From Effrenium voratum (taxonomy: Eukaryota > Sar > Dinophyceae > Suessiales > Symbiodiniaceae), in contig CAUJNA010001614.1 in assembly GCA_963377175.1 (NCBI GenBank), forward strand, positions 1 through 64,000: a stretch of 64,000 bases of DNA, in the 5' to 3' direction. A program made the translations under genes and the position numbers. The notes below the pieces were generated by a model that had not been told where the DNA came from, did not search any database, and saw only the letters and a list, made by a program, of their open reading frames with translations. Shown one piece after another: positions 5,285-36,442 of the stretch; the first letter of the stretch is position 1, and each line of letters begins with the position of its first letter.

Positions 5285-6061
5285 CTCTCTGTTATTTGTG
5301 AAATCTAAAACCGCTCACAGCGCATCCTCAGAGGTTGTCATTCAGCAACTGTGGATTCTGCGAAAATTTGGTGGTTTTGCGCGGCGTGGCCACAGCCCTT
5401 CTGCTTGCACTTCTGCAAGGGTTTTCAGCTTGCTTCAATATGCAGGCAAAACGGGTCCTAGTCGCATTCTGTGCGTCTCGGAAGTTTAAGTTGCCCGGGC
5501 TTATAGCGCTGTTTCTGGCCTTGTAAGTGCGTTTCTGTTGCGGAGCTTTGTGGCTCGAAAAGCCTGACAAGTGCTTTCTAAGCGCAACGGTGACTCAGAG
5601 CAGAAGGTTGGTTGGGTTGGAATTCTCTTGGCCTCATTTGCTGCATGTGAGCCTTGGGTTGCGTCTCCGCCAATCCTGCGGGGGGTGCTGGGTTAGGGCA
5701 GCCGCAGATAGGCCAGCGCATCGCACGGTCACGTTGACGGTGGCAGCTGCAGCCGCCGCACGCACTCGGGGGCAGTGGCTGCTGCTGCCGTGCGAAGGAA
5801 CTCCGAACAGTCGTTCAACTTGCTTGCCACCGCATTGCGCAACCCGCAGGAGTTGGGACTAGCAGGTATTTGGTGCAGAATTCCCTGAGCCTGCTGATTT
5901 GCAGCTTGGATAGGTCCACCTGGAAGCTACTTGGCAGAGCACAATGCTGAGGCCAGGCGCCGCCGGGCAAGGTAGTACTCTAGCTTTCCGGAACCGAAGA
6001 AGGGCGAGTGCAGCACCGACACGTCGCCCAGCAGCAGGTCCAGGTGTGGAGCCAGCCACGA
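5285..6061. repeat. 777-bp chimeric repeat unit, copy 1 (uninterrupted)
   Basis: The unit begins at the TCTCTCTGTTATTTGTGAA junction after the capsid fragment and ends inside a methyltransferase fragment near GTGGAGCCAGCCACG. An inverted copy exists at 17,702-18,347 plus 36,443-36,562, split by the LTR retrotransposon. The two copies share the same methyltransferase breakpoint, so the chimera formed before it was copied. The stretch 5,302-5,950 has no convincing gene; short ORFs here are chance. Confidence 0.8.
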
Positions 6062-17701: not shown

Positions 17702-18347
17702 TGCCACGTGGCTGGCTCCACACCTGGACCTGCTGCGCGACGTGTCGGTGCTGCACTCGCCCTTCTTCGGTTCCGGAAAGCTAGAGCACTACCTTGCCTG
17801 GCGGCGCATTGTCGCCCTGCCAAGTAGCTTCCAGGTGGACCTATCAAGCTGCAAATCGGCCCAATCAGCAGGCTCAGGGAATTCTGCGCCAAATGCCTGC
17901 TAGTCCATCCTACTCCTGCGGGTTGCGCAATGCGGTGGCAAGCAAGTTGAACGACTGTTCAGAGTTCCTTCGCACGGCAGCAGCAGCCACTGCCCGAGCT
18001 GCGTGCGGCGGCTGCAACTGCCACCGTCCAACGTGACCGTGCGGCACCAGGATGCGCTGGCCTATCTGCGAGCGCTGCCCACCCAGCACCCCAGCAATGC
18101 AATCCTGTTGCCGGCGCAGGATTGACGGAAACGCAACCCAAGGCTCATGCAGCAAATGAGGCCAAGAGAATTCCAACCCAACCAACCTTCTGCTCTGAGT
18201 CACCGTTGCGCTTAGAAAGCACTTGTCAGGCTTTCCGAGCCACAAAGCTCCGCAACAGAAACGCACTTACAAGGCCAGAAACAGCGCTTTGAGCCCGGGC
18301 AACTTAAACTTCCGAAGCAAGCTGAAAAACCTTGCAGAAGTGCAAGC
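17702..18347. repeat. 777-bp chimeric repeat, copy 2, left part (inverted, split by retrotransposon)
   Basis: Read on the opposite strand this matches 5,404-6,061, including the methyltransferase fragment (plus strand 17,702-17,812, LAPHLDLLRDVSVLHSPFFG). The match breaks exactly at 18,347 and resumes at 36,438/36,443 on the far side of the LTR element. Confidence 0.85.
18343..18347. repeat. Target-site duplication CAAGC, left
   Basis: CAAGC directly precedes the TG of the left LTR and is repeated at 36,438-36,442 directly after the CA of the right LTR. Five bases is the usual duplication for Ty1/copia integrases. Confidence 0.9.
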
Positions 18348-18702
18348 TGTCAAGAGACGGCAAGGTGACGCCCCGTGGGACGCTATGCACCGAACCCTCA
18401 AGCTGTAATACCAACCACGTAGAAAGGTGTATACGGACGATGCCGTTATAGCCGAACCCGTGTAAACGTTGAAAGGGAGAAGGAATGATAGTTACAACAG
18501 TAGTCCTGACAAATGCAGCGCAAGCGAAGTGTTTATCGCTCTCAAAATAATGCCGATCACGTATGTATGCAGTCACACATCAGATCTTGAACCTCAATTG
18601 TGTCTTGAGCCAAATGGCGATCAATGGAACTTGGGAAGCAACACCACCAAGGACCTCAGAACAGCTACCCAATTTCGGCACGGGGCCTAGAGGGTTTTAA
18701 CA
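18348..18702 (-). repeat. 3' LTR
   Basis: It begins TGTCAAGAGACGG and ends GGGTTTTAACA on the plus strand (TG...CA). It is 6 bp longer than the other LTR because of a 1-bp and a 5-bp indel near 18,533-18,550. By eye only three substitutions separate the two, implying a recent insertion. Confidence 0.95.
18604..18618 (-). other. Spliced-leader-like relic in 3' LTR
   Basis: On the minus (element sense) strand this reads GCCATTTGGCTCAAG. The dinoflagellate spliced leader contains GCCATTTTGGCTCAAG, so the match is complete except for one missing T. The same relic is in the other LTR at 36,339-36,353. Confidence 0.6.
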
Positions 18703-18712
18703 TCCCCCCTTT
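18703..18712 (-). other. Polypurine tract
   Basis: On the element sense strand the ten bases directly before the 3' LTR read AAAGGGGGGA, an all-purine tract in the exact position needed to prime plus-strand synthesis. Confidence 0.85.
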
Positions 18713-19331: not shown

Positions 19332-22300
19332 CTACGCATACCGGTCCCCAATGGACAGTCTGTGAGTGCGTCGACGGAACTCCTCGTCCAAGTTCTTCTG
19401 GGCTTCTCGTGCCCGGACACACTTCTTGTTGTAGTCCTCTGGCAACCAGTGCCTTTTCCGAAGGCACCAATCCAGCAGGGGTGTGTCGCATTTGTTCGGG
19501 TCGATGGCCGAGATGATGGCGCTCACGTTGACCGTGTAACCATTCTTGCCAAGGTTTAGGCCATCCCTCACGAATGATATATACTTACAGTTGAAAGCTA
19601 GTGCAAAACATCTGAAAATAATATCACCCACCGGGTGCACTCGGTCCTTGACCAGGAGCTTCATTTCTTCCTTGGTGACATCGAGGATTCTTGCTGCAAT
19701 CCACAGCTTGTAGAATGTGTATAGTCCCTCGCATTTGTTCACCATCATACGAATATATTCGTCACGCTCCTCAACCGATCGGAAGGCTCTTGTCCGAACA
19801 TTCTCCGATTGAGAAATCTTCGTTATTGTTGATGGCAAAAGTATACCTTCCTGATCATGCTCAGTGATGTTGGGGTACCTCCTGAAATCATTGTGATAAG
19901 GGCAGCCCGGATTCCCTTCGAGTCCGGCATTCATCGTTCTCTCCTCACCACCTTCAAACATCCCCCACATCTTGGACAGCTGGAGTGCGATAAATCCTGC
20001 CATGTACTGAGCCTCACGCGGCTCGTCAAGGCAGATCGCCATCCGTTGGGAACTTATAATGTCCCGTGACGCCAGATCGGTGTCGCGGTAATGCCAACCG
20101 CCGTCTTCTTCTTCTGACGCATAGCCGGATGTATATCCTTGCGTGTCCATGTCGTCATCTTCTCCCGGAACTTCCTCCGCTTCGTCTTCATCCTCCTGTG
20201 CTGCCGCATCGTGGTTAGCTTCTTCCTGTGCACGCCTGGCATCTCCAGAGACGTTGGGGTTTTGGTTGTCCTCCTCGTCATCGGATTTGATGTGAATGTA
20301 GTATCTTCCGATGGAGATCAGTTGTGCCTCGCACTCCAGGCATAAGCAGAAGCAGGTGGGGATCGCGGTCGCACATGATGGACATATCCGGCACCTCAGT
20401 CCTTCCCATGTCTCGTCATTCAGGATGACGACTTTGCTGATTTCGTCCCGGACCTCGTTGACCTGTGCATTGAACTCTTCCATCTTGTTGATTCGATAGA
20501 GTTCGCAGGCACGATTAACCATGTCAACGATGTAGTGCAGATTATCGGCACCTGTCTCAGTCTCCGGCATCCTCTCGCTGATCTTTGCGACGTTCTGGAG
20601 GAACATCGCAGCCGACTCTTGGGAAGAGTTGACAAAGCCAGGGCAGATCTCGTTCTCCACACACTTCGAGTACGCCCTCTTGATGTCAGCGTACTCCAGG
20701 CGCTTCCCTCCGTTGCTTTTGCCAATCCAAATGGACTTGACCTCATAGAACGGGATCACGTCAAAGACCATGAAAGTCCCATTAGCCGCGACTCCAGCCC
20801 CATACCGCGCGAGGGTTGCACTGGGAATGTAGATGATCGCAATCGGATCCCCTCTCCTCACGTTCCGCAGCGTTGTCTTCGTCGCCACGTTCATCTCATC
20901 CCATGGAGCAAACGCCCCGAAGTGCAGTGCTAGCCTGTTGCCGCCATCGATTCCGCCGGGGACTAACCCACAGCGTACGATGCTTGGCAGGTTTTCCACA
21001 TACGTCACATGGAATGCTCCTCCGAGAGAATCACCCATTCTTGCGGAATACCTATTCGCCAGTGCGGATGAGCTCATGAATCCAAAATCACTGTGACCGG
21101 TTGTGACTCGGATGCACCAAGGTCTGTACCATCCATCGCATCTGTTGAACATCCTGTCGATGTCGTCCCGATCCACGCCAGCTTCGGTCATTTCCTCCCT
21201 GGCTGCCCTCGTGTCGTTCGGGTTCATGATGCTCGGAAACCTTGCTGCCAAAACCTGGAATCTCGATTTTCTGCTTCCGGATTCCTGCCACTTGATCACC
21301 TCCATGATGCCCATGTATCGTTTCGCTCTCGTGGTGTATGGTGGGAATATGTCGTTGTTCCGGTCGTCAATGACAGCATCAATGTCGACCCATCCACCCT
21401 CGTCGCACCTGAAAGCACTTCCTCGGCAATTGCCGATCTTGTGTCGAAGGACTCTGCATAGGTCGTGAGATAGCTGGTTTGCTTGGTCCCTTGTAGTAAA
21501 TACCGAGCGATCATCACCAATCCTGCATAGTGGAGCACCGTCGAAAGGAGCAATGCAGAAGTTGACACTCTTGCCAAGTTGCATCACGTCCACTTGCTCA
21601 AGGATTGCACCTTTGGGAAAGTATTTGGGGTCAACGATGGACGCATACGCCCATGGCAAGTGCACATCACTCACATCGCCATACTTCGGGATGTAGCACG
21701 GGATGGTGTCGCATCCCATCTCAAGCGTCTTCTTGAATGTCCTGTTGTCCCCGCACGGGTTGTAGGTGAGGTCGACGCCACCACATTGTAGCTCTCCTCC
21801 CTCAGCCGTGTCAGCCATCTCCACCAAATTAATAGTGTAGCTGTACATCTCAATTGTTTCTTTCCCTGCTTGTCCCCCTTTCTTTCTTTCCTTGGACGTT
21901 GATGAGGACGGTTCCTCCGTATCCCCCATGTCTTCATCAGATGAAACAGGGTCACTGCTGAGTAGCTCACGGAGCACCTTCATCGCCTTCTCATTTCCAG
22001 CAGCCTCCTCAATGTCCTTGCAGTCGCCGTCGTGGGCCAGGTTCGCGCACTTCTTACAGATCCCCATATCTCCCATGCACTTCTCCATTGACTCCAGGAA
22101 TCCTAGTGCCGCTCTCCGCCCGTCGATCACTCGCTGCTTCTTGTCTTCCTTCTCAGTATTGGCTTGAGAACTTCGACTCGGGTCTGGTGCTTGACCAAGA
22201 CCCTCATCTTCGCCCTCCGTGGCCTTTCTCTTGGAACCTTGTGCAGAGGGCTCGGTGATCAGGGATCGTGGATGTCTGGGCTTGACCTTGTTCATGATGT

Positions 22301-23219
22301 CAAGCACCTCCTTCGTGGGCACGCCGAGCTGTGCGGACGGTCTGTTCCGCTTTCTGTTCTGGCCCGTCGTGTGGGTCACGTTCCCAGCGAGGTGTCGCAC
22401 TATTGACTGCTCGAACTCCCTCTTGATCTTCCATGCATCCTTCCACAGTGGCAGTTCGTGCTGGAAGTACGACATCACCTCAAAGAATCCCAACACCATC
22501 TCGACGACGTCTCCCAAGGATTCCTCGTTCGTGGTTTGTCCCAGGAGTTCATACATCGTTCCTTGGTCGAGCACACTCTTGATCCAGGACGAATATGCCA
22601 CATTGCCAAGATCCTTGCCTATCAAGAAGATGGACATCCTCTCCTCGACTCCCTCGGAGTTCTTGCACACGATCACATCCCGGGATGCGCACAATTGCTT
22701 CCCGTGACCGTTGTTGTAGAACTGCGCTGCTTGATCCACAGTCATGCTCACGAATCCCACGTGAGAAAGCTCCTTCTTCAGCCTTGAATACGCGAGCTCC
22801 CGTATGATCGTGATCATGGCCTGGATATTGTTGACGTCCACCATGAGGTTTTGAAGGTCGGGGATTGCCACCACGCATTCCGCGAAGAGGCGCGTGTACA
22901 TTTTCTTCCCCTCGATAGACATTGCAATACCGTTCGTGTCCGCGTTCCAGTTCGCGCAACAGTTCACGCAAGAAGAGGGATTGTACTTCGACTTCGGTCC
23001 GAGCACCTTCGACTTGCTCATCTGCATCTCTTTAGCGCAAAGTTCGCAGATAAACTTGCTGAGCTCCGTGACCGTATACCATCGAAGACGTTGATCACCG
23101 ACATCGGCTTTCCCAAAAGCATCCTGCTCGCCGTGTCCTTCATCTTGCTGCTCTTGTTTCCTCTTCGACTGTGCAGTGAAGGTCGGCTTGTACTCGAATT
23201 TCACCTTCGATTCCTCCAT
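19332..23219 (-). CDS. Retrotransposon accessory ORF with Tpt1/KptA RNA 2'-phosphotransferase domain
   Basis: This intact 1,295-residue ORF starts at ATG 23,219 (MEESKVKF). A Cys cluster near residues 55-95 (CELCAKEM, CVNCCANW) suggests zinc binding. Residues ~580-840 match the Tpt1/KptA family in order: LCRVLRHKIGNC with GGWVDIDAVI (the LRHK...GW start), CIRVTTGHS (the IRAxQGHS motif), FHVTYVENLPSIVRCGLVPG (the YHGT...GLxP region), GNRLALHF, then PFYEVKSIW. The Arg, His, Arg, Arg set used to remove a 2'-phosphate with NAD+ is apparently retained. A second Cys group (CRICPSCATA, CFCLCLEC) lies near 940-965, followed by acidic stretches. The ORF starts 35 bp after the preceding ORF ends. The KptA call is strong; the role in the element is unknown. 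Confidence 0.8.
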   Translation of the reverse strand: MEESKVKFEYKPTFTAQSKRKQEQQDEGHGEQDAFGKADVGDQRLRWYTVTELSKFICELCAKEMQMSKSKVLGPKSKYNPSSCVNCCANWNADTNGIAMSIEGKKMYTRLFAECVVAIPDLQNLMVDVNNIQAMITIIRELAYSRLKKELSHVGFVSMTVDQAAQFYNNGHGKQLCASRDVIVCKNSEGVEERMSIFLIGKDLGNVAYSSWIKSVLDQGTMYELLGQTTNEESLGDVVEMVLGFFEVMSYFQHELPLWKDAWKIKREFEQSIVRHLAGNVTHTTGQNRKRNRPSAQLGVPTKEVLDIMNKVKPRHPRSLITEPSAQGSKRKATEGEDEGLGQAPDPSRSSQANTEKEDKKQRVIDGRRAALGFLESMEKCMGDMGICKKCANLAHDGDCKDIEEAAGNEKAMKVLRELLSSDPVSSDEDMGDTEEPSSSTSKERKKGGQAGKETIEMYSYTINLVEMADTAEGGELQCGGVDLTYNPCGDNRTFKKTLEMGCDTIPCYIPKYGDVSDVHLPWAYASIVDPKYFPKGAILEQVDVMQLGKSVNFCIAPFDGAPLCRIGDDRSVFTTRDQANQLSHDLCRVLRHKIGNCRGSAFRCDEGGWVDIDAVIDDRNNDIFPPYTTRAKRYMGIMEVIKWQESGSRKSRFQVLAARFPSIMNPNDTRAAREEMTEAGVDRDDIDRMFNRCDGWYRPWCIRVTTGHSDFGFMSSSALANRYSARMGDSLGGAFHVTYVENLPSIVRCGLVPGGIDGGNRLALHFGAFAPWDEMNVATKTTLRNVRRGDPIAIIYIPSATLARYGAGVAANGTFMVFDVIPFYEVKSIWIGKSNGGKRLEYADIKRAYSKCVENEICPGFVNSSQESAAMFLQNVAKISERMPETETGADNLHYIVDMVNRACELYRINKMEEFNAQVNEVRDEISKVVILNDETWEGLRCRICPSCATAIPTCFCLCLECEAQLISIGRYYIHIKSDDEEDNQNPNVSGDARRAQEEANHDAAAQEDEDEAEEVPGEDDDMDTQGYTSGYASEEEDGGWHYRDTDLASRDIISSQRMAICLDEPREAQYMAGFIALQLSKMWGMFEGGEERTMNAGLEGNPGCPYHNDFRRYPNITEHDQEGILLPSTITKISQSENVRTRAFRSVEERDEYIRMMVNKCEGLYTFYKLWIAARILDVTKEEMKLLVKDRVHPVGDIIFRCFALAFNCKYISFVRDGLNLGKNGYTVNVSAIISAIDPNKCDTPLLDWCLRKRHWLPEDYNKKCVRAREAQKNLDEEFRRRTHRLSIGDRYA

Positions 23220-23254
23220 GTTCTTCGGGATGTTGAATCGAAGGTCGGGCTCGT

Positions 23255-25976
23255 TTATGCACGTCCCTCCAGCTCACACACAAACGCGTTGCTTGGTGCG
23301 ACCGCATCGATGGATTTCTCAATCAGCAGTCGCTTCAGGAGGAAATGTTGCAAGTTCGAGCTCCCAGGGATCTTGTAGTTCTTTCCTGTGAGCGCATGGA
23401 CCACGCGCCACAGGCGATCGTTCTCGGTCACCAGCGCGCCTGCCGCCTTGCAGATCTCGCTAACCTTGTTGGCGATCGTCCCCAAGTCCCCTCTTCCACC
23501 ATGGAAAGCAACATCGCGATTCACGCACACCACGACCAGGCCCTTGCATGTGTTGACGAGGTCAGATATCGCCTTCTGCAGGGAGTCGATGATGGGGTTG
23601 GCGGTCACCTGCCATCCGCATCCTCTCATGCACACCCAATCATATAGCGACATCCAGATGTGCACCGACATTGGTGAGTCATCCATGTCTCGCCTCCGCC
23701 GTTCAGCGATGAGCTTATCCAGCTTCTGCAATCGGGAGATGATATTCAACGTGTCGTTGGGTGAGGAGACTTGCTCACTCGACCCATAGTATGATCTCTC
23801 CTCGATGTTTGTCCATCCCTGTTCGTTGACCATCATCTGGAAGGTCTTCGTGCTCCCTTTCGAGTTGACGGCCCTCAGGGGCCAATCCAGGACCAAGAAG
23901 CTCTTCTTGTGGATCATCATGTCGCGAATCGTCGCCTCGCCAATGGGGCTCCTCTTCTGCCTATTGATAATCCGGTTCAACTGTCCAGGTGCGTTGTCCG
24001 GGTTCTTCTCCGCCTGAATCAACGCGTTGATGGCTTTGGCGCCCGGAAGGCGTCCAGTAATCAAGCATCCTGTTTGGGCACACAAGAAAGCATACAGCTG
24101 TAGCCATGCCGCATTTCCCTTCCCAACATAGGAAAGAATGATCTTCTCCGCGCTGGTCTTCTCCTCGAAGTGCAATAGCGAAGAGGTCAGGCATCTCAGC
24201 ATACACTCCCAATACGTTGCCTTCTTGCCTTCTGCAAGACACGGCCCAAATACAGTTTGTATGATTGGGTACCCCGTATTGTTGTCTATGTTGAATTTCA
24301 CATTGACAGTCGCGCCGCCCAAAGTGGTACCCCCTTCGAATGAAGTGTAGGTATCGTGTCCAGCAGTTGGGTTGATAATTACCCATCTGTCGTCGTCACC
24401 GCCAGAGTTCATTCGGAAAATGGAGTCGATGATCTCGTTGTCGATCTTGACAGCATCGCTGGCTTGCGACCCCCCACTTGGAGCTCCCGGCTGGGGGACT
24501 GACCCACCAGCGGTTTGACTCCTTTGCCCGGAGCTTGATGCCGACTTCTGCTGTCGCTCCGTCTTCCGTGGCGGCTCCGTCTTCGATGAGCCCATCACCC
24601 ACCATGTCGGCTCTTCCCCAACCACGAAATCCTCGGGGTACTTCTCCAGTTCCCTCTCGATTTCATGAATCGTGCAGTATTTATTCTGGAAGAATTCGAT
24701 CATGACGTCCTTCTCGGCCTTCTTCTCGATCTCCTTCATCCAGCTTACCCACTTGCGCCGATCTTGGTTCTCAGCGGCCCTGTCAGCCGCGTGCGGTGCC
24801 AAACTGATGGAGTTGATGTTCATCGCAGGCAGCTTCGACTCATAGATCATATCGATGCACCATAGGAAATCCCTGGCGTACTCAATCTCCCGGTAGAGAT
24901 CGTTCAGCTCCCTTTTGTCTGGACGGAAATAAGCTGTATACGACTGGTCTTTGGAGTCCTTCTCACCGAGCAATGGCTGCAATCTCCTCATGATGAACGA
25001 TACGCACATGAGCGAATTGACCGCCCCGATGCACGCATCAGAGATGTCACTGGGGGTTGACCCACAGATCATCCAGCGCAATAGTTTGTTCTGGCTGGCA
25101 TTCTCATCCCTCCTCAGTGCATATGCGAGGTTCTTCATCGATGCCTGCAGCTCATTCTGGTAGACCAACCCAAGGTCCCAATTCTTCTGGTAGTCGTCCT
25201 TGGAACCACGACCGTAGGAGTCGATCTTGGGAGCCTTGATCACGCTCAACGTGAACACTTTCCCCCAGTTTCGATCTCTGTACCTTGCAATTCTCCGATC
25301 GTGCCTCTCAAACTCTGCAGTCGTCTGGAACTCCTCGGAGCTCCTCCACCTCCTCGATGACGATGCCCTAGATGACTCGTCGCTGATGAATTCTTGTACA
25401 CCTCCCCAACCGGGGTGTCCTGGTGGAATGCAGCTTTGAACGACCGTTCATCGTTGTCCTCGGCCACGCCTAGTGCGAGATCCCAGATGTTCGCGATTGA
25501 TCTCAACATATCCGCCCCTTCCATGCAGTACTTGGTTACGTTGAGCAACTCGGGGTTCTTCGCCAGCATCGTTGCCTCACCGCAAAGTTGGTTCAGCGCC
25601 GACACGATCTTCTTTCCCTTGCTGCAGAATTCCCTCCATCCAAGCATACATTCGTCGGCAGAAAGCTGTCCGAAAACTTTGCTGATGAACTCTAAGGCAA
25701 CCCTCATAGACTGCCCTTCACCCTTTCATCATCCCGCGGCCCTTGGCAGAGTAGTACGCAGAGTATGCATAAATAGCGGGGACGCCTATGTCCTCGATCC
25801 ACTTCACGCACATACCCAGGTCGCTGCTCATCTCCATCCTCTTGGGTATCCTCTTGCCTTCCTCAATGGCGTTCTTCACCAAATTCCCCAAGAAGATTGC
25901 TGCTTGCCTAGATTTCCCGACAGGCACGCAGAAGAACTCATTTGTATTGACGACATTCGGATTGGCAGTCATCTTG
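23255..25976 (-). pseudogene. Retrotransposon accessory ORF of unknown function (frameshifted)
   Basis: Three adjoining minus-strand frames appear to form one protein of about 900 residues: MTANPNVVNTNEFFCVPVGK from 25,976, continuing at MRVALEFISKVFGQL (25,707), then after a shift near 25,380 a long frame (667 residues from 25,258) ending at 23,255. Content is mixed alpha/beta with many Trp and Met (WICGSTPSDISD, SVHIWMSLYDWVCMRG, GLVVVCVNRDVAF). The last 150 residues alternate strands and helices like a hydrolase or Rossmann-type fold, but no catalytic signature is certain. A Lys/Pro/Ser-rich linker lies in the middle. I do not recognise the family. Confidence 0.55.
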
Positions 25977-26313: not shown

Positions 26314-26892
26314 TTATTGACGTGTACAACTGGGTTTCTTTGGTTTCACGACCAGCACAAGGTCCATGCTCATGGTTTCCATTGCATTTCTTAGACAACG
26401 AGCCACCAAGTTCAAGTTCCATGAGACAACTCTCCATGGTTTCTTGATTGGCATGGGTTTCTTTGCATATCTTTGTTTCAAGCCATAGCGACACCCATCA
26501 AACTCGTGACTAGTCCCATCATGCACGACCTCATGCAGTCTCTCATCTTTCCAATAATCACAACTTCCAGGCAACTCAAACAAAATCGCAGCTCGTTTTG
26601 TCATGGCATGCCGTTTAATTTCAACGAACCGTTCAAATAATCTCCAAAATTCTCTTTGTTTGGCCTCGATTTTCTCTGCGGTGTCAATTCCGCGAGTCTT
26701 GTTGAGGCGTGCCCATGATGATCCCCCCGTGCAAGGCCCGGCGAAGAACAACAAATCGGAAGGTTTGGTAAGCACATGTCTGGCGATTCTCCCCCCGTAC
26801 TCGCTCAGTAAGTCATCAACCAGGGTTATGGTGACAACCTGCGGCCCGTCATGGCGGGCAAGAGCAGTGAACCAGTTACGTGGTTCGAACAT
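26314..26892 (-). pseudogene. Post-RNase H domain with PCTGGSSW motif (frameshifted)
   Basis: After the RNase H region another frame reads EPRNWFTALARHD, then LLFFAGPCTGGSSWARLNKT, AAILFELPGSCDYWKDERL and KKPMPIKKPWRVVS. Near 26,430 the frame shifts and the end (CNGNHEHGPCAGRETKETQL) is one frame over. The order PCxGG-S-W, E-x-P, C-x-Y-G-L and IKKPW resembles a Rossmann-type methyltransferase (PCxxxS and ExP motifs of cytosine-5 enzymes), but motif I is not evident, so I leave it as an uncharacterised domain. Such a block follows pol in other dinoflagellate copia sequences I recall, which I cannot verify here. Confidence 0.5.
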
Positions 26893-29222
26893 GCCATCAG
26901 CACGATGGGCCGAGCCAAGTCAACACTGTAAAGAGTGACGACTGTGCGAGTTCTCATACCAGGAAGCGAGACATGAACAGGAGCGCGAAGCACACCACCG
27001 TCGTGTTTGACCATCGCGAGTTCAATACCCGGCGCTAACTGTGGCTTGTGCTTCACCGCAATGCGATACGGAACAAAACAACGACCAGGGACAAGCTGCT
27101 CGTGATTGATATGCAGACAACGCATGAGCAATTTCAATCGGAGCAACGTTTCCAAAGCAAGGTCGTTAACACACTTCAACTCTATGCGCTCGTTCGACAG
27201 TTCTTCAACAAATGCGGCCAGCACGGACTGCATGTCAACATCCCCGGACCCGACGTGAATTGGTCGTGGTCGTGGAGACCGTTCCCGCGCCGGTGCAGCG
27301 ACCGGTACGGGATGAAACTGCCAAACTGCGCGTTCAACCCAACCATCAATTCGCACACATTGTAGCCCCGGGTCAACTCTATCCTCAACTTTGAGCCATG
27401 ACCCATTCTTCAGAAACCAAGTGGAACGAAGCCACTTGCTCCCAAACGGTGTCATAACCGCGAGTGGAGGTTTCACACGCATCAATCTGGGTCCCTTGGC
27501 AACAACAACCGGATCATGTCCTTCATGCTCATGCAATCCCTCTTTGGATGTTAATCCAGACCACCATAGGTCCGGGGGCATGATCGGTATGTGTGTGTAC
27601 GGAAATGTTGGAACTCCGTCAACTGTCCCCGAAGCGGTCTGCATGGTCCCCTTTATGGGATCACACGTGGGTGTGAGCGCCTTGAGGGTATCCGGGTCAG
27701 ACAGCAAGCTCGGGTCAAGTAGACCAATCTGCAAACATGCATGTTTCCATTTGCGCCCATCATTGAACGCCTTGGTGTAAATATCGGCCGCCATCCTGTC
27801 GGTGACCTCATACGCCAAGTACATGTAATCACGTGTGAACATCTCATGCATCCACGAAATGCTAACACCATGGCTTCTCTCAAGGTGGCGCATCGTGGGG
27901 TTTCTCCCCGATCGCACGACACCGATCATAGCCTTGTTATCGTCATAGAACACAAAGTTCGGTGACTTCTTGAGAATCCGCTCTACCAGCTTGAGAGCGG
28001 GCATACCCATCGATCTCATGGCAACATCGGCCGCAACAATCTCGGCCTCGGGAGTGGAGTGACTCACACAACCCTGTCTTTTAGAGCTGCCAGACAACGG
28101 AAACCGGGTATTAGGCCCTTGTATATTCAAGTGTCCACCGGAGGTGGAACGCAGCGAGTCAATGCATCCCGCAAAGTCAGCGTCCGCATACAAGGCCAAG
28201 TGCACATCGTCCATAGGGTCTCCAACCCAACCGACCATGCGCCAATGTTTGGTATGATGCACATAGCACATCAAGTGATGCAAACCCCGATCATCGGAGT
28301 CAGTCCACCTATGCACGTTCCGTGCTAGGCGATTCACTTGCCGCAACAAATCGAAGCGAGCAATCCGCGCACCGTACAGCAACTTCATCAGTACGCTAGC
28401 GGCATGCGGAGCAAGGTGTCCACGCACGGGCTCCTTCATGGCCAACTCAGGAGTCCCTCCCCGTTGGTCCGGCACTGTGGCAGAACCGTCGGTGGGCACA
28501 AGATTGTTACACCAATTGCACACGACTGACGGCCCCTCTCTGGCAGGCTTCCGTGAGACGTGATTCTTTGTTTCTTCATGCAACTCAGGGGTGACAACCT
28601 TATTCAACTTCACGTCGCCCGCCACTTCAAGATAGCGGTCGACACAGGAACGTAGGAACTGTTCCATGTCATAGGTCACCGTTGTTACTCGGTGTCCGTT
28701 CCCGAGAGTGACGTTTCCCTTGCTTTGATTGCAACCAAGGTACATGTCAAGTCCAGTCTCGGGCTCAATCTTCAAACGTGTACGCAACATGCTCCACCCT
28801 TGGGCAAGGTTCTTCTGCGGCCCTGCCATTTTGAAGTCGTCGACATACACAACCAGAACAAGCTGGAGCTTTTCATGAATGTACACTGAAGGCCATTCTT
28901 CGCCGATGGGCTCAAAACCAACGGCACGCACCGATTCATCGCAGTGCTGCTCCCAAAATGTTCCCGCATCTGGGTGTCCGTACAGCGCCTTCCTCAACGG
29001 GACGACTGGTCTTCTGTACTTATCCCATTTGCATTCACTTGGCACGGCCTCCGGTGGCAATTCAATCCAACACGGCGTGCCTCTCAAGGTGGCCTGTATA
29101 CGCCTGAACAGCGTCGGCCATCTGCACATCCCAGCCATCATGACAACCCAGAAAATCCGCCCAACGCGAGGCTTCAAATGAAGCAGGGGAGTTCCCCAAA
29201 TCTTGAAACATCGCAGCCTCAA
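26893..29222 (-). pseudogene. Copia-type reverse transcriptase and RNase H (frameshift-linked)
   Basis: The frame includes LRKALYGHPDAGTFWEQH and the catalytic LVVYVDDFKMAGP (YVDD) of reverse transcriptase, then VLMKLLYGARIARFDLLRQV, and RNase H with LALYADADFAGC, SHSTPEAEIVAADVA and FYDDNKAMIG. This is the copia order and spacing. About 300 further residues follow without a known domain. The upstream end connects by a frameshift near 29,100 (ADAVQAY in one frame, IQATLRGTPCW in the other). The enzyme copies element RNA into cDNA in virus-like particles. Confidence 0.9.
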
Positions 29223-31100
29223 AGCTTTGGTTCTTCACTTGGTTCCCCAGCAACACGCCTCTACCCTTGAACTTCCTCTTAGGATCACCAACAGGCAACT
29301 GTGAGTGCTTTTCAACGCAAATGCCATGTGCGCGAGCCATGTGTATTTCTTCCCCCTTCGCTTTTGCTTCTCTGGCTACAGCGTCATATTCACGCACCGC
29401 GCCAAGATCGAAGACCCCCTGGTCGATTAATCCCGACCACTCTTTCTTCATTGATGCCAATGCATCAGGGTTGGTCAACATCTCTTTCCGGCCTACCGGC
29501 CTGGATACTAAAGCGTCGAAGAATCGTACAACTTTCACAGCTTTCTCTCTGTGCTGTATTCGCTCAGAAGTCACGCACGGCATCGATGGGTACTTCTTGG
29601 CTTCACCGTCCTCGCCTATCGCAGGCATTGCGAGTGGCACTTTTCCAGAAACTATCTCAGCAGACTCCTCCCATTCATACCAGGTGAGGTCCGTCGATTC
29701 GTCGACCGATGGATCCGTCCCCGATGCTGTCTCAGCTTCGTCTTTATGACTCTCAATGACTGATGCAACCGCCTTCGTCCAGTTTGGAGTCGACTTTGAT
29801 CGCTCCTCAGACTTGAACTTCCAGGCATAAATTACCACCAGACACTCAAATTCTTTCTCAAGCTGAACGTTTCGTCTCATGACGTCTTGGGACTGTTTGG
29901 AATCCATGAGAACAACCACCCCGTCGACAGGATTAACAACAATCCTGACCCATTCAAGCTCAGCCAAGTGCTTCCCATCCATTGGGTTCTTGATCTTTGA
30001 TATGTTCTTCCGCAATCCCCAATTGTACTGCCATTCTACTCCACCCCAGCGGTTCCGAAGCATCGCTCGAATTCTCTTACCACCGGGCATCTGTAATGTC
30101 CGTGCCTCTGCCGGCGCGGAAATCTCAGACTCTTTACTCTTGGGATCTTCCTCTTTCCTTTTGCCACCGCCCTTCACCTCGGCCTTCTCTTCCTTGGTGT
30201 AATATTTACTCATCATCTTCCATTCTTCAGGAGTGAACTCCGGAGGTCTCGATGTCTTCATTAGCCTGAATCCATCCTTCCCGACAGGATACGGTCTTCC
30301 GGCCTTGTCGATTTTAACCTCCTTGCCATCGTCGTTGACGTACGTGATGCCATCCCCAGGTAGTCCAACTGACACGTGTGGAAGGTCGGATTTCGCAACC
30401 TTCTCATCGCCCTTGGAGTGTCCATCTCCTTTCCCTTTTGAAGAGCTCGGTCTAGCATCTTCTTCTCCTGCATGATCCCCCCGATCTCCGGCGATTACCT
30501 CCGGGCCATCGTCGAGCAGTAGACCAGCGATCTGATCGACTTCATCGTCAAGCAGTCGCTTCTCGTCACTCTGCAGCAATTCAGGCTCGTAGTCCTCATC
30601 CTCGATCAGGCGGTCACGTGCATCCAGACCGATTGCATCGATAGACATCTCTATTCCTTCCAAAGTCTCGTTGGCAACCTTGTACTTCTGTTGTATTGGG
30701 AATGTCAGAGGAGATTTCAGGATCATCCTCTCCGTCTGATGTGGCATTCTCAACCGAGGTGGAACCTTTGCCTTCTTGATGTTCAGCTCTGCACCCGCAA
30801 ATGCAGTAAGTGCCCAAGCACGATACTTGTTTGCCCAATGCATACCGGTGCTCAACACATATCCAGCAAATATACCAGTTTCCCCTCTCGGCTCGAACTT
30901 CTCCCTCTTTCCCCCTCGTGCTTCGCTCGGCTTGAAGTCCACTAGCGCACCAAAAGGTATCTTCTCGCCCTTGAACTCCTCGCCATGCAGCCTCATCCAT
31001 GCACTCGATCCGTTCACCTCTTCGATGTTCATGAGATGGCACAGAGTGGTGATGGCCTGCACCCAATAACACGTGGGTAGACCGGCATGTACTAGACAAG
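29062..31100 (-). pseudogene. Copia pol: integrase C-terminal region to start of reverse transcriptase
   Basis: Read through the frameshift near 31,100 the product continues from integrase as LVHAGLPTCYWVQAITTLCH, then IPFGALVDFKPSEARGGK and FEPRGETGIFAGYVLSTGMH (the GxxGIFxGY copia integrase C-terminal motif). A Lys/Glu-rich linker follows, then FDALVSRPVGRKEMLTNPDA and ARAHGICVEKHSQLPVGDPK entering reverse transcriptase. It ends where a frameshift moves to the downstream RT frame. Confidence 0.85.
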
Positions 31101-34100
31101 CCGAAGTCTGGTCATGATGAATTGATTTGTTCTTTCAGCAAGGGAATTGTTCTGCGGCCGTCCAGGCAGCGATAGGTCGTGGTTCAGCTTCAGCTCCACG
31201 CACGCATTGATCAGTTCCGGGCCGTCATCTGAATATACCTGCTTGATTTTCCTCCTCCCGCAGAAGTGCTTGATAGCCCTGACGACTGAGTCAGTGTCTC
31301 TTCTCGCGGTGGGATAAGCCATGATAATTCCGGTATATATGTCCCGGATGATGAGCGCATACCTGCCTTCCACTTCATGATCTCCTGATGCCGTCACAAA
31401 GTCGAACGTCACCAGGTCACCGAACGTCTTCACTTCTCTTTTGAATGCTCCCGTTCGTGATCTGAAGTGTCTCATCTTTGCCTTGACGCATGATTCGCAG
31501 AAGGGATTTCGGTATCTGTGTGTAAGCAAATGAGCTATGGAATTGGCGTCCTTCTTGAGGACTCCCACTTTCCTCTTTATTGATGATCCTTCGTACACGT
31601 CTACTTCGATTCCGGCATCTGGATCATCTTCATCAACCTCTTCCTCGTGAGCTTCGGCATCACCATGTCGATGCGGGACTGACCCAACATCTACAGGTAT
31701 TTCCTCAGCCACGGGAGGCGGACGTACCGGACCGGCTCCTCCGGGTGGCCCGAAGTCGAATGCCCCGTCGTGGTGTTCGCCCTCGGCCTCTGCGGACTCA
31801 CCGACAGCGGCGGGTGTGACGTCGTTCTCATCGTCACCTCCCTGATCTGCCTCGTCGTTCGTTACCATCGCCAATACTTCCGAAAAGTGCTCCTTGAGGT
31901 CGTCTATCGTAGGGCGATGCCTGTTACTCCGAAGTTTACCATCACTCACTAGGTACGGGATGTCGTCCTTGACCTGCAAGTGCACGAATCCCTGCTTTGG
32001 CGTAACCATGAAAGGTAGTTTACCAGGCATCCAGTGAAATGCATAACCCATCTTCATGCATCTCCTCCCCACTGACAATACCGTGGGTGTCTCATCCAAT
32101 ACATGTGGCTCGACAGTCTCGTCCAACTCGTCCACAACTATCTTGGCCACATCAGATGTGGAAGTGGAACCATTCGCGGTCTGGAACACGATCTCGTCGT
32201 CATCTTTCACGATGTCGACACCCAGGCTCTTCGCCTTGGCTCTTCCAATGAGATCATGACCACATCCGGTGTCCATCAACCATTTCACCCGTTTGCTGAT
32301 GCACGTTGACATGGCGAAAACGTTCTTCGGCATACCATGCTGCTTCTTCCAGTCGACAGCCGATTCCTTGATCTCGTCCTTGTTCCGATCATACTCGAAC
32401 ATTATGCTGCTCTCCTTGGTCACCGGGAAGTAGTGCTTCTTATATACATCATCCACTACTTCTCTCAGTATCTTCGCACGTATCAATGATCGTTGGACTT
32501 GATAGGCTGATAATTCACGATGATCACTGCTTTTGAACTTCTTCTCGTCGACGTACACGTACTGATAAGGCTCATTCTCATTGTCCTCATAACCGTACCA
32601 TTCCCCTTTTCGTTCCCATTGCCTTCTCTCGTCTTCGAGGTAGGTGATCTCCCCATTCTCGTCGACGTCGAGCACTTCCTTGAACCACACCATTTTCTCG
32701 GGGATCTCGGACTCGCCAGACCATCTCGATGATTCGCTCATCGCGTCGTCATCGTGCTCGTGGTAGACAGTCTCGGCTTCGTCCGGTTCGACCTGATCAA
32801 CGTCCTTCTTGAAGCTTACCTTCCCTGCAGGAGCCGATTGCTTCAGGACTATCGCGGGCATTGCGATGGCCCTCCTCGCAATGGCAGGCGCTGCGGCTTT
32901 GGCGGCAGCCTTCGACTTGGCTTGCGCCTTGTCATTTGACGTTGCTGGAGCTGAATTGTTCTTGATGAGCTCATGCCTGTACTTACAAGCGCTTCCCCTA
33001 TCGCACTTCCCCTTCTGAAACGCGAAGCATGCTCCATCATCCCTCTTTGGTGACGATGATCTGGACTTGGATTTGCCCTTTCCTTTCCCCTTGGACATGC
33101 TCTCCAACTTATGCTCCGTCTTCTTGCTGTGGGAAAAAGTGCATTCATTCCCTTTCACGCACCCCTTCGCCGATTTGAAGTGGTACCAGCAGGGGTTATC
33201 CTTGCTTCCGCCCGGACTCTTGCCTCTGTCGCTGGCACCGTCGGACTTGCCGTTCTTGCCAGCGTGGCCCTTTGCCTTGGCTTTTGGGAGCACAGGAGCG
33301 GCATCAGGTCCACCGGGTTTCCCCTTTCTGCCCTTGCCACCCTGGTTCTCCTGTTTGCCAGTTGCTGGAGCCGCATCCTTCCCGCCTGACTTCATCATCG
33401 ACTTGACCGATTTCTCCTTCATGTCGAGCATCAGGTCTTCCCGATCTGCCTTGATCTGATAGTCGATCAACGCCAATAAGAATTCATACGTCTTCTGAGG
33501 ATGCTTGTCCGGTAGTCTATGGTAGGCATTGAGGCCGAACTCCATCTTCTTGCTCCCTTTGATCTTCCTGTAAAGGATGTCTCTGAGAGCCAGCTTACTG
33601 GGTCTGTCCTCGCTCCTCATCTTCAGCAGCAAATCATACCATTTGTTCCTGAACATGACCAAGTTCTTGTCGCCAGGAAAGTCAAGGTTGAATAGATGCT
33701 CGATGTGGTAGACAAGATCCGTTCTATCGGAAGTCCTGAATGATTGCATAACTAATGCCACCAACTCTCGTCCCTTCACGATCACCCCTTGTTGATGTCG
33801 TAGTTCAGAGTGTCGTGTAGCATCGAGGTATACGTCCTTGGCTTCGTCAGGTGCTTGTTTCAGCATGTTCTGCATGCCCATGGCCATCTTAATATCTATC
33901 GTAGCAAATCTGTCGCCACCTGAATCGCTAAGCAAATCCAGGTCTGGGTTCAACCCAAGAGCCTGCTCCAGCCATTTCGTCCATGCGTCGGTATCTGGAT
34001 CTGCACATGCGCTCAGAACATTCATCAGCAGTTGCATCTTCCAGGTGTCAAGTTGATGGATCTTTGGCCAGGCCGGAATAGATACTCTCTCGGCCTCTTT

Positions 34101-35990
34101 CCTCGAGATTCTCGGTCGATCATTCTTGATCTCTCGGTTATCTCTCGATCTCCTTCGTCTCCTCCGTGTCCGATCGTCTTCTTCCTCTTCTTCTTCCTCG
34201 TCTTCCTCATCTCCTTCGTCGTCGTCATCCTCATCCTCATCATCGGGTGGATCATCCGGAGGTCCTCCTCCGCCACCAGCGAGGCTCAACTGACGTCGAC
34301 CCGCTCCCTGCCCATTCCCATTGGGCGGGAATCCACCGTAATCCAATGGGGGCGTAGTACCGTTGTTTCCCCCCCCATCACCACCACCAGTCGTAGTAGT
34401 GGATTGTGGGACATGCCCAACAACCCCTTGCATCTGGGATAGGTGTACATCGATCATTGGATCACCGAAAGACGGAAAGAGGATCGAACCTGGCATCAGC
34501 GACGAATTAGGGATTTGATTTGAAGACGATGACGGGACTGACCCAGCCACCTTCTTGTCTATCCTATTTGAATTAGCCTGGGTTCCTCCCTCAGCGCGTT
34601 TCACTACTGCTCGTTCACGATGTCCATCTTTGCTGCTGGAGGCTTCCTGTGTCTCCAGCTTCTTGTGTGCACGTAGTTCCTCGTTGTCAGCATCGAGTTG
34701 GCGTACAAAACTCTCTTCTTGCTTGAGCGTCGCCTCTCTTTCTTTCAGTTGTCTCTGAAGCTCATGCATCTCCTCGAGGTACTCATCGTACATTCCCTTA
34801 GCTGTCAATCTCCAGTACTCAGCCTCCTTCGACTTCTCGTCCATCGTGCACCGTTCCTCTTGTTTCTCTTCTTTGACCTGGGCTAACTCCAAGATCGCAT
34901 CCTGACGATGACCACCTTCGACAGCAATCATCTGGTCCTTCATCGACACGTCGGACTCATACTGTTTGACGATCTCTTCTTTTTCGCGAAGCAAGCAATC
35001 TGCTCTCTTCGATTCCTGTTCCGCAAATACTGTAACGTCATTCAGCCTCGCCATCAGCTGTTCCCTGGAGTCCTCCAAAGAGTACGTCTCGGGGCGCTTG
35101 ACGAGTGCATGCTCCAACTGTGATTTCAGACTTTGGACCATCTCCTCCTCGTTGAACTTCTCGATAGATGTAGAAGATTCTATGCCTCTGATCTGTTGCT
35201 GATAAACTGATATCTGTTGTGAAGCCTCACGGTGTATCTGATTTGCACGTATAGCTGATTCCTGCGCGGCCGACTTCTCGCTTGCCATGTAGGATTTCAT
35301 CAATGCAATCTCCCGCTTCTGCTCCATGATAGTTCCTTCAGCTTGCCTCATCTGTTGCATTATAATATTCGACTCCATGTCTTTCTTCTCCCCGTACTGA
35401 AATGCGTTCATTTCCACCTTGCGCATCTGTTGGGCTTCTTCCTCAAACTTGCGCCATGCCTCAGCCATGTGGTGTTGGTGGTGACTCACTAGATGTCCCG
35501 ACTGCTTGCTGGCAATCTCGCATCGTCTTTCCAGCTCCTGGATCCGGATGGTGCTTCCATAGTCTTCTTGGTTAAGATTCGCCATTGCTGCCGACATTTC
35601 ATCAAGTGTCTTCTGATATTCCCCGATCTCCACCTCCATCTTATTCTTCTCTTTGATCACGGCGCGAAAATCTGCACTGGTGGGTGATTTTGACCTCCCA
35701 CCCTTCGATGTCGATCTCACGCCCTTCTGCGACGTCCGTGGTGTCGCAGGCGAAGATGATGATCTTCTCGGTGGGGATTCTCTTTTCTTCGACTCCTGAT
35801 GAACATCGATCTGCTTCCATGATCTTGTGGGAGTAGATATGTCGCTGAATAGCGCGGAACCTCCGCTCCCAGGTTCATCCTGTGAATCTGCAACCATATC
35901 CATCACCGCAGGAAGAGCCATCAATCCATTGGATCCCTCTGAGCTGCTGTTCCCAAAAGTTGCAGTACTTGGGCTCGCCGAAGACGCCAT
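31092..35990 (-). CDS. Copia Gag-protease-integrase (5' part of polyprotein)
   Basis: The ORF has 1,632 residues from ATG 35,990. Residues ~110-460 are a long coiled coil; ~575-620 is an acidic run followed by Arg-rich sequence. Residues ~625-860 are a Gag capsid-like helical region (WLEQALGLNPDLDLL, FRNKWYDLLLKMRSEDRPSK). Two CCCH zinc fingers lie near 935-1,000 (CWYHFKSAKGC..., CFAFQKGKCDRGSACKYRH), in place of the usual CCHC knuckle. The protease WLMDTGCGHDLIG is near 1,237. The integrase zinc region (HLLTHRYRNPFCESC) is near 1,495, and its core has FDFVTASGDHE and YSDDGPELI. It runs out of frame at 31,092. The long coiled coil and CCCH fingers are unusual for copia in general. Confidence 0.9.
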   Translation of the reverse strand: MASSASPSTATFGNSSSEGSNGLMALPAVMDMVADSQDEPGSGGSALFSDISTPTRSWKQIDVHQESKKRESPPRRSSSSPATPRTSQKGVRSTSKGGRSKSPTSADFRAVIKEKNKMEVEIGEYQKTLDEMSAAMANLNQEDYGSTIRIQELERRCEIASKQSGHLVSHHQHHMAEAWRKFEEEAQQMRKVEMNAFQYGEKKDMESNIIMQQMRQAEGTIMEQKREIALMKSYMASEKSAAQESAIRANQIHREASQQISVYQQQIRGIESSTSIEKFNEEEMVQSLKSQLEHALVKRPETYSLEDSREQLMARLNDVTVFAEQESKRADCLLREKEEIVKQYESDVSMKDQMIAVEGGHRQDAILELAQVKEEKQEERCTMDEKSKEAEYWRLTAKGMYDEYLEEMHELQRQLKEREATLKQEESFVRQLDADNEELRAHKKLETQEASSSKDGHRERAVVKRAEGGTQANSNRIDKKVAGSVPSSSSNQIPNSSLMPGSILFPSFGDPMIDVHLSQMQGVVGHVPQSTTTTGGGDGGGNNGTTPPLDYGGFPPNGNGQGAGRRQLSLAGGGGGPPDDPPDDEDEDDDDEGDEEDEEEEEEEDDRTRRRRRRSRDNREIKNDRPRISRKEAERVSIPAWPKIHQLDTWKMQLLMNVLSACADPDTDAWTKWLEQALGLNPDLDLLSDSGGDRFATIDIKMAMGMQNMLKQAPDEAKDVYLDATRHSELRHQQGVIVKGRELVALVMQSFRTSDRTDLVYHIEHLFNLDFPGDKNLVMFRNKWYDLLLKMRSEDRPSKLALRDILYRKIKGSKKMEFGLNAYHRLPDKHPQKTYEFLLALIDYQIKADREDLMLDMKEKSVKSMMKSGGKDAAPATGKQENQGGKGRKGKPGGPDAAPVLPKAKAKGHAGKNGKSDGASDRGKSPGGSKDNPCWYHFKSAKGCVKGNECTFSHSKKTEHKLESMSKGKGKGKSKSRSSSPKRDDGACFAFQKGKCDRGSACKYRHELIKNNSAPATSNDKAQAKSKAAAKAAAPAIARRAIAMPAIVLKQSAPAGKVSFKKDVDQVEPDEAETVYHEHDDDAMSESSRWSGESEIPEKMVWFKEVLDVDENGEITYLEDERRQWERKGEWYGYEDNENEPYQYVYVDEKKFKSSDHRELSAYQVQRSLIRAKILREVVDDVYKKHYFPVTKESSIMFEYDRNKDEIKESAVDWKKQHGMPKNVFAMSTCISKRVKWLMDTGCGHDLIGRAKAKSLGVDIVKDDDEIVFQTANGSTSTSDVAKIVVDELDETVEPHVLDETPTVLSVGRRCMKMGYAFHWMPGKLPFMVTPKQGFVHLQVKDDIPYLVSDGKLRSNRHRPTIDDLKEHFSEVLAMVTNDEADQGGDDENDVTPAAVGESAEAEGEHHDGAFDFGPPGGAGPVRPPPVAEEIPVDVGSVPHRHGDAEAHEEEVDEDDPDAGIEVDVYEGSSIKRKVGVLKKDANSIAHLLTHRYRNPFCESCVKAKMRHFRSRTGAFKREVKTFGDLVTFDFVTASGDHEVEGRYALIIRDIYTGIIMAYPTARRDTDSVVRAIKHFCGRRKIKQVYSDDGPELINACVELKLNHDLSLPGRPQNNSLAERTNQFIMTRLRLV

Positions 35991-36059: not shown

Positions 36060-36088
36060 TGTAGAGCTTGTAGTTACGGCTGATAACC
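36060..36088 (-). other. Primer-binding site candidate
   Basis: On the sense strand the bases directly after the 5' LTR read GGTTATCAGCCGTAAC. Copia-class elements often prime from a half-tRNA with a site starting GGTTAT, and the complement CTGATAACC looks like a tRNA anticodon loop and stem. The exact tRNA was not identified. Confidence 0.4.
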
Positions 36089-36437
36089 TGTCAAGAGACG
36101 GCAAGGTGACGTCCCGTGGGACGCTATGCACCGAACCCTCAAGCTGTAATACCAACCACGTAGAAAGGTGTATACGGACGATGCCGTTATAGCCGAACCC
36201 GTGTAAACGTTGTAAGGGAGAAGGAATGATAGTTACAACAGTAGTCCTGACAAATGCAGCGCAAGCGAAGTGTTTTCGCTCTCAATGCCGATCACGTATG
36301 TATGCAGTCACACATCAGATCTTGAACCTCAATTGTGTCTTGAGCCAAATGGCGATCAATGGAACTTGGGAAGCAACACCAACAAGGACCTCAGAACAGC
36401 TACCCAATTTCGGCACGGGGCCTAGAGGGTTTTAACA
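36089..36437 (-). repeat. 5' LTR
   Basis: It is bounded by TGTCAAGAGACGG and GGGTTTTAACA, the same ends as the other LTR. Followed outward by the target duplication CAAGC at 36,438-36,442. Confidence 0.95.
36339..36353 (-). other. Spliced-leader-like relic in 5' LTR
   Basis: Same 15 bases as at 18,604-18,618 (GCCATTTGGCTCAAG in element sense), expected because both LTRs are copied from one template. Confidence 0.6.
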
Positions 36438-36442
36438 CAAGC
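36438..36442. repeat. Target-site duplication CAAGC, right
   Basis: Matches 18,343-18,347; the uninterrupted copy at 5,403-5,407 has only one copy (GCTTG on the plus strand). Confidence 0.9.

Follow-up and report, generated by a model that had tools for sequence, protein, structure and literature searches.

The window, the whole 64,000-nucleotide stretch of Effrenium voratum DNA that we analysed, contains a complete 18.1-kb Ty1/copia element with TG..CA long terminal repeats (LTRs) and a CAAGC target-site duplication, and the 1,295-aa ORF of this element contains a Tpt1/KptA domain (Table 1). Judged from its sequence, the element is a giant, multi-copy Ty1/copia retrotransposon that inserted recently. 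We lean slightly towards the view that its polyprotein ends in an active KptA enzyme, whose task is to strip 2'-phosphates from the RNA on which reverse transcription relies.

Table 1. Features of the KptA-bearing element and its insertion site (window coordinates).
Feature	Position	Strand	Basis or remark
Target-site duplication CAAGC, copy 1	36438..36442	.	flank sequence
5' LTR	36089..36437	-	349 bp, TG..CA
Candidate primer-binding site GGTTATCAGCCGTA	36075..36088	-	directly after 5' LTR
ORF, 1,632 aa: gag, CCCH zinc fingers, aspartic protease, integrase core	31092..35990	-	Pfam
ORF, 666 aa: presumed C-terminal part of integrase through N-terminal part of RT	29062..31062	-	lies between the rve and RVT_2 matches
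ORF, 798 aa: copia reverse transcriptase (RT), RVT_2 at residues 66-171	26826..29222	-	Pfam
ORF, 192 aa, after RT	26314..26892	-	without profile match
Two short ORFs, different frames	25718-26494 and 25246-25707	-	
ORF X, 667 aa	23255..25258	-	without Pfam match
ORF with KptA domain, 1,295 aa	19332..23219	-	PF01885
Tpt1/KptA domain as modelled, residues 569-844	20688..21515	-	profile, alignment, fold
Candidate polypurine tract, before 3' LTR	18703..18712	-	
3' LTR	18348..18702	-	355 bp, TG..CA
Target-site duplication CAAGC, copy 2	18343..18347	.	flank sequence
CAAGC at paralogous empty site (insertion flanks without element)	5403..5407	-	

The KptA ORF lies within a single inserted element

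The two LTRs differ by 3 substitutions in 349 aligned columns, with 6 gap columns, and the 3' LTR is preceded by a motif that we take to be a typical polypurine tract. At a paralogous empty site within the window the CAAGC motif is present once and the element is absent, indicating that the whole element inserted as one unit. The preliminary description of this DNA had treated KptA as part of one copia element; the LTR pair, the duplication and the empty site bear this out, and the last of these rules out an assembly join, which that description had named as a possible refutation, as well as a nested insertion, as the origin of the arrangement. A search of the window for a dinoflagellate spliced-leader motif, allowing up to 3 mismatches, gave 0 matches.

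The order of protease, integrase and then RT is that of Ty1/copia elements, which the window element also resembles in its LTR pair and 5-bp duplication. It differs from them in its size, in the approximately 7.5 kb that follow the RT and end in KptA, and in the 5,563-aa single frame that carries both RT and KptA in one genome copy (C530). Several Pfam matches upstream of KptA score below their cut-offs. In the 1,632-aa ORF these are Asp_protease_2 (residues 1233-1281; 22.5 bits, cut-off 24.3), rve (residues 1542-1612; 19.9 bits, cut-off 32.6) and, likewise, the CCCH zinc fingers. In the window, whose copy is broken, RVT_2 reaches 27.9 bits; in C530 it scores 35.1 bits and so exceeds the cut-off of 31.6. 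The sole Pfam match of the 666-aa ORF is SH3_retrovirus (E 0.2), and the 192-aa ORF gave no match in Pfam, PADLOC or PHROGs searches. ORF X is related to P0014 (E 6e-08), and in other copies a single frame spans both it and the KptA part (e.g. P0003, 1,838 aa).

Pfam gave no RNase H match in the ORFs of the window element or in C530, and no match to a ligase, kinase, cyclic phosphodiesterase (2H), macro or Nudix domain in the seven element ORFs and two C530 pieces. The Pfam scans thus gave no sign in the element of the partners (ligase, kinase/phosphatase or 2H) that accompany KptA in a phage-type RNA-repair cassette, and any cyclic phosphate would need to be opened by the host or by an unrecognized ORF. 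Several ORFs of the element are without any profile match, and PHROGs returned a single weak, unrelated match of unknown function among the element proteins.

The domain has the active-site residues and predicted fold of Tpt1

PF01885 matches the 1,295-aa ORF with 32 bits (cut-off 26), and the Arg-His-Arg-Arg tetrad is present as R592, H593, R704 and R762, together with the NAD-site residues H737 and T739. Tpt1 activity requires this tetrad, according to the available part of the source (PMC6333775). In the predicted structure both lobes are present, the RNA lobe and the ADP-ribosyltransferase lobe. When the fold was compared with the PDB by Foldseek, all of the 20 best matches were Tpt1/KptA entries, at 14-18% identity. 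The domain first proposed from the letters alone is thus confirmed by both profile match and Tpt1 fold. An earlier structure model, built from a 7-row alignment, had a pLDDT of 36 and was not used.

The window domain is like Tpt1/KptA/TRPT1 enzymes (PF01885) in its profile match, tetrad, HxT NAD motif and predicted two-lobed fold, and differs from them by sitting in a polyprotein; the insert between the lobes is shorter in Escherichia coli KptA. A phmmer search of the domain against PDB sequences gave no match, a 4-row KptA profile found Tpt1 chains in the PDB only at E 0.014-0.028, and hhalign of this profile against E. coli KptA gave a probability of only 61%. In NCBIfam there were matches to KptA models alone, far under cut-off, and the stricter equivalog models were not reached. 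Across the family, PF01885 was found at E <= 0.1 in 13 of 15 scanned members, window included. Among nine diverse members, two of which (P0013 and P0014) also belong to the 15-member scan, six reached E <= 0.01 (P0105, P0059, P0034, P0093, P0117 and P0014), and only P0105 (E 1.1e-07) lay above the cut-off.

The tetrad is kept in 10 representatives less than 60% identical to one another, wherever the frame covers it, and all 16 of the genome copies compared share it unchanged. With rows of fewer than 140 aligned columns left out, none of 20,000 random column sets was as conserved as the tetrad. Within the window lineage the tetrad and the NAD-site His and Thr are conserved far beyond the average of the KptA domain. 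We infer that the domain is probably an active NAD+-dependent RNA 2'-phosphotransferase.

KptA is a regular part of the element

The 1.16-Gb genome from which the window comes yielded 3,208 first-look candidates, of which 36 were scored. In this sample, which is biased to good copies, all 36 are full-length and stop-free, the window's own included. All 36 contain the domain, which is not the one-off capture that the preliminary description had named as a refutation. Its placement of the KptA ORF between RT and 3' LTR also holds, as the LTR adjoins the ORF in 16/16 examined copies and RT lies upstream of it in 12/12. These counts supersede an initial cross-match of contigs by length (one row lacking a length being left out), in which KptA was on 6 of 20 contigs with a close RT and on 0 of 98 with a distant RT, a difference confounded by genome of origin. 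No relative was found in the viral and prokaryote genome contigs scanned (the former being the viral_contigs set), nor in phage records.

The P0014 lineage shares three collinear blocks with the window element at 21-31% identity, and the layout is therefore old. Over 16 copies we counted 51 synonymous and 30 nonsynonymous codon variants, giving a pN/pS of 0.16 that is biased towards low values because the copies were ranked by protein score; the KptA domain accounts for 8 and 4 of these variants, respectively.

Host sequences captured by LTR elements do ride along with them, and a captured host Tpt1 might simply amplify with the element and have no function. The near copies would fit such a neutral passenger, since their KptA shows no clear excess of conservation over the remainder of the ORF. 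We nevertheless regard this as extremely improbable: the layout is identical in the lineage only 21-31% identical, the active site is kept across representatives, the frames are open throughout the scored copies, even in a sample biased as described, and KptA recurs in other elements.

KptA recurs in unlike repeats of the same genome

The same genome contains a second copia family with KptA, a LINE-type family with KptA and a family of AAA-KptA ORFs (our tree was built without P0103). This recurrence in several mobile-element families hints that RNA repair helps such elements to spread. The second copia family departs from the tetrad at two positions, His to Gly and Arg to Lys (two copies aligned), so that the chemistry may differ between families. 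These changes, and the low similarity of the window domain to canonical Tpt1 (32 bits), would suit a module that has lost its chemistry and is retained because its winged-helix lobe binds RNA, perhaps for a use such as packaging. The window lineage, however, retains the whole tetrad as well as the His and Thr of the NAD site, and its fold model retains both lobes; loss of catalysis there seems to us very unlikely.

We return to the slightly favoured reading of an active enzyme serving reverse transcription. The KptA domain would be made together with Gag-Pol; the protease of the element may then free it, and the particle may carry it. It would be likely to clear 2'-phosphates from RNA that the element requires for reverse transcription. 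This reading presupposes that 2'-phosphates stop reverse transcriptase and that the host possesses a ligase that leaves them. A candidate substrate is element RNA that has been cut and then resealed by such a host ligase; alternatively, KptA may act on a cleaved tRNA primer, at its 3' end. Because a single genome has KptA in copia, LINE-type and AAA-containing repeats, this requirement is probably shared by reverse transcription at large in this host and not peculiar to one element. A bolder reading, which we hold as possible but doubtful, is that RNA 2'-phosphate removal is a general need of retrotransposition in one host lineage, with convergent capture of KptA by the two copia families, the LINE-type family and the AAA-KptA repeat. 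Behind it would stand a host pathway, either one that cuts and reseals RNA or one that damages it, which would otherwise prevent reverse transcriptase from reading element RNA or primers.

The primer could be the target in a more specific way. In Drosophila copia the primer is a tRNA cleaved within its anticodon region; if the present families do likewise, KptA might clear the 2'-phosphate of the cut end and so let RT extend it. The use of a tRNA primer, suggested in the preliminary description, gains some support from a primer-binding site common to two copia families: GGTTATCAGCCGTA follows the 5' LTR identically in the window element, C530 and the second copia family. Its complement, TACGGCTGATAACC, resembles an anticodon stem and loop (CTGATAA) and is without a terminal CCA. 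On the other side, one exact-pattern search of the genome for a tRNA gene with TACGGCTGATAACCGTA gave no exact match, and the window's single tRNA matches the primer stretch no better than shuffles. Moreover, KptA is also carried by the LINE-type family, and LINE-type elements are not known to need a tRNA primer. As the main role of KptA we consider primer healing unlikely.

KptA might instead reverse or pre-empt a host attack on RNA, or hide RNA ends from exonucleases and sensors by ADP-ribosylation. Its recurrence in unlike elements fits a common host threat, viral KptA models share the fold of the window domain, and viral KptA is cast as an RNA-repair enzyme in virus-host conflict in the available part of PMC9503650. 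Against this, PADLOC defence-system models matched none of five element proteins. To our knowledge, no RNA-cleaving defence is known for this host. We judge counter-defence to be somewhat unlikely. The interpretation in the preliminary description is on the whole partly supported, and the uses it proposed (repair of the element's own RNA or of a tRNA primer, or counter-defence) stay hypothetical.

A selfish element with KptA in many copies, together with unlike elements of the same genome that also bear it, would indicate that 2'-phosphorylated RNA has a genuine source. They would also make it testable which RNA carries the 2'-phosphate and whether reverse transcription depends on its removal.

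Relation to described systems

In the literature 'TPT1' often denotes another gene. We found no description of KptA/Tpt1 within a retrotransposon among the matches listed, and the passages of PMC4053983 deal with an amoeba and are unrelated. According to the part of PMC9503650 available, KptA is known in phages, sawfly nucleopolyhedroviruses, Bodo saltans virus and a few RNA-virus polyproteins, including those of Beihai picorna-like virus and Botrylloides leachii nidovirus; the words 'retrotransposon' and 'retroelement' have 0 occurrences in its text. Viral KptA is, like that of the window, embedded in a polyprotein or genome, but those carriers are viruses.

Related systems are also SymbioLINE-Dnmt, SymbioDIRS-Dnmt3 and KnitGypsy-Dnmt3, in which a DNA methyltransferase lies in retrotransposon coding regions of dinoflagellates and a charophyte; the same source, as far as available, describes Symbiodinium Copia elements as being without DNA methyltransferase (PMC5890265). 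KptA would extend to another enzyme the idea, known for DNA methyltransferases, that retrotransposons repeatedly capture nucleic-acid-modifying enzymes. The window element is like the Dnmt retrotransposons in its captured nucleic-acid-modifying enzyme. Their cargo is a DNA methyltransferase, whereas the cargo described here resembles an RNA 2'-phosphotransferase and is carried by copia and LINE-type elements.

A KptA domain within a single copia insertion

The preliminary description proposed that a giant copia retrotransposon encodes a Tpt1/KptA domain, and the structure of the element bears this out. Between one pair of LTRs we observed, all on the minus strand, genes for a CCCH gag, an aspartic protease, an integrase core and a reverse transcriptase (RVT_2), followed by several ORFs that match no profile, ORF X and the KptA ORF. 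The LTRs differ by only 3 substitutions in 349 columns, indicating that the insertion is recent. CAAGC flanks the element on both sides, and related sequence on the opposite strand (5200-5900) runs continuously across the insertion point with a single CAAGC; hence the 18.1 kb, including KptA, was inserted as a single unit. This paralogous empty site rules out an assembly join, an artefact that the preliminary description had considered, and likewise excludes a later nested capture of KptA at this site. In the window copy the coding sequence is broken into several frames, and the zinc fingers, protease, integrase and reverse transcriptase all score under the curated cut-offs. After the reverse transcriptase, 26314-26892 (minus strand) carries a PCTGGS motif reminiscent of a cytosine methyltransferase, and gave neither a profile match nor a PDB sequence match.

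Features of the window
Feature	Position	Strand	Remarks
Pox_A32-type ATPase	592-2520	+	Polinton-like
Direct repeat, about 5.4 kb	11429-16920 and 47149-52523		80-94% identity, depending on the piece; spacing about 35.7 kb
tRNA-Ile (tat), single tRNA gene	17430-17502	-	ARAGORN; Rfam match to tRNA
LTR	18348-18702	-	TG..CA ends
ORF X, 667 aa	23255-25258	-	no profile match; precedes KptA, position kept in the protein relative P0014 (21% identical)
LTR	36089-36437	-	TG..CA ends
Inverted repeats	38605-40706 and 62127-64000		92-98% identity; second overlaps integrase ORF
Type B DNA polymerase with Endonuclease_7	56069-58083	+	Polinton-like
Integrase core	61292-63985	-	under cut-off

Copies and distant relatives

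A one-off capture, the other doubt raised at the outset, is not what the genome (1.156 Gb, 3,699 contigs) shows: all 36 copies scored among 3,208 first-look candidates have a full-length, stop-free KptA ORF. These copies are 99% identical or the window copy itself, and their open frames span 1,313 to 5,563 aa. On contig C530 a single frame (20465-37153) with LTRs on both sides contains RVT_2, here above the cut-off, together with KptA. The 3' LTR adjoins the KptA ORF in 16 of 16 copies on 16 contigs, window copy included, and the reverse transcriptase lies upstream in all 12 of the other copies for which that region was retrieved, with main segments 86-99.9% identical. All 16 agree at the seven key residues. 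What the sequences show is a Tpt1 domain with a preserved active site, forming part of a polyprotein in a family of many near-identical copies. Codon variants among the 16 copies comprised 51 synonymous and 30 nonsynonymous changes (ratio 0.16), with 8 and 4, respectively, in the KptA domain (ratio 0.146); ranking of the copies by protein score biases the ratio downwards, and its low value is only suggestive. Among near copies, KptA was not clearly more conserved than the ORF flanks.

A search of 5.8 billion proteins found 14 long relatives, one of which heads a cluster with 1,765 member sequences, and PF01885 was detected at E <= 0.1 in 13 of the 15 family members scanned, window included. 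Profile searching gave 137 relatives (120 listed), and those aligned split into subfamilies, down to 21-42% identity with the window KptA domain. In ten representatives less than 60% identical, including the window, the Arg-His-Arg-Arg tetrad is kept wherever the reading frame covers it, a conservation matched by none of 20,000 random column sets. Three depart from this pattern: in P0068 the frame diverges ahead of the second Arg, P0105 has a frameshift at the last Arg, and the first part is missing from P0121. P0014 and the window element share three collinear blocks (ORF X, a middle block and KptA) at 21-31% identity. The layout, compared here at the protein level, is therefore old.

Further KptA-bearing repeats and evidence of recurrent capture

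A whole-genome PF01885 search scored 150 matches of 558 candidates, and all those listed exceed the cut-off; the window family (32 bits) is absent among them. The control search was positive in 3 of 14 named genomes. A 277-aa ORF (C276:95659-96489, about 173-174 bits) probably represents the TPT1 of the host itself. Group A comprises thirty matches scoring 148-167 bits, whose open frames are 235-2,062 aa long. In one (C3367, 2144552-2153713), a KptA domain close to canonical (159 bits) lies in a 2,013-aa frame that terminates at a stop codon; beyond this stop the frame continues open and encodes Exo_endo_phos (24.6 bits; cut-off 24.5) and RVT_1 (54.9 bits; cut-off 29.6), a LINE layout. C1887 has the same arrangement, with Exo_endo_phos within the part retrieved, and a LINE-type reverse transcriptase was present at the expected distance in three of four further copies spot-checked, the corresponding stretch of a fifth falling past the end of its contig; we assume that all thirty belong to this family. 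In group B, one 1,958-aa ORF contains both KptA and an AAA_30 match that falls short of the threshold, and this ORF is repeated (C1241:46522-52395 and C416); none of the six surrounding ORFs scanned matched a profile.

Group C, made up of many matches at 58-68 bits, looks like a second family of copia elements. On C195 (192409-203935), 148-bp direct repeats, 99.3% identical and with CAAAC on both sides by eye, enclose CCCH gag, reverse transcriptase and KptA. Its RVT_2 match is under the cut-off (20.2 bits) and aligns with the window reverse transcriptase at 36-43% identity (E 2e-41). C3199 has the same gene order, and a reverse transcriptase was found in four of five further copies checked. 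With two copies aligned per group, the tetrad is intact in groups A and B; in group C, Gly replaces His and Lys replaces the second Arg, so that its chemistry may differ from that of the intact-tetrad families.

In a 15-row tree, the window lineage and six relatives form one supported clade, separate from the host, E. coli and groups A, B and C. These results are evidence of recurrent KptA capture. The tree gives no supported order for the other rows and carries a program warning about long branches, so it does not fix the number of captures.

Dinoflagellate and charophyte retrotransposons are reported to have captured DNA methyltransferases (PMC5890265); that enzyme is the cargo of the SymbioLINE-Dnmt-type elements, whereas the window copia element carries KptA. 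A KptA survey (PMC9503650) places the domain in phages, sawfly nucleopolyhedroviruses, Bodo saltans virus and a few RNA-virus polyproteins, and does not mention retrotransposons. Among the literature matches listed, which take in few subscription journals, there was no report of Tpt1/KptA in a retrotransposon or of 2'-phosphotransferase cargo in dinoflagellates or Symbiodiniaceae. Capture of enzymes by retrotransposons is already known; what we rate as new is the type of enzyme in a copia element and the evidence that it was captured recurrently.

Possible role of the KptA domain

The KptA domain would most likely remove RNA 2'-phosphates using NAD+. Reverse transcriptase is blocked by 2'-phosphates, and certain Tpt1 enzymes can take off terminal 2'- or 3'-phosphates; the retroelement could plausibly gain a template that can be read or a primer that can be extended. 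Drosophila copia primes with a half-tRNA, and KptA might ready such a tRNA-derived primer for extension. In favour of this, the 14 bases that follow the 5' LTR, GGTTATCAGCCGTA, are identical in the window element, C530 and the second copia family, and their complement resembles an anticodon stem-loop. However, an exact search of the genome found no tRNA continuing the stem, and KptA is also carried by the LINE-type family, although LINEs prime at the target site. For these reasons we favour a wider interpretation, in which the enzyme repairs RNA for reverse transcription, over one confined to the primer. The main rival to RNA repair is counter-defence, also put forward in the preliminary description. 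A 2'-phosphate is reported to hinder Xrn1 (PMC6456296).

Surroundings of the element

Genome size, the CCCH-gag copia and one relative from EukProt (P0106) hint that the host may be a dinoflagellate; no spliced-leader motif was found in the window. Polinton-like genes, namely the ATPase, the DNA polymerase and the second integrase core, lie on either side of the copia element, and the inverted repeats are possibly the ends of a Polinton-like element.
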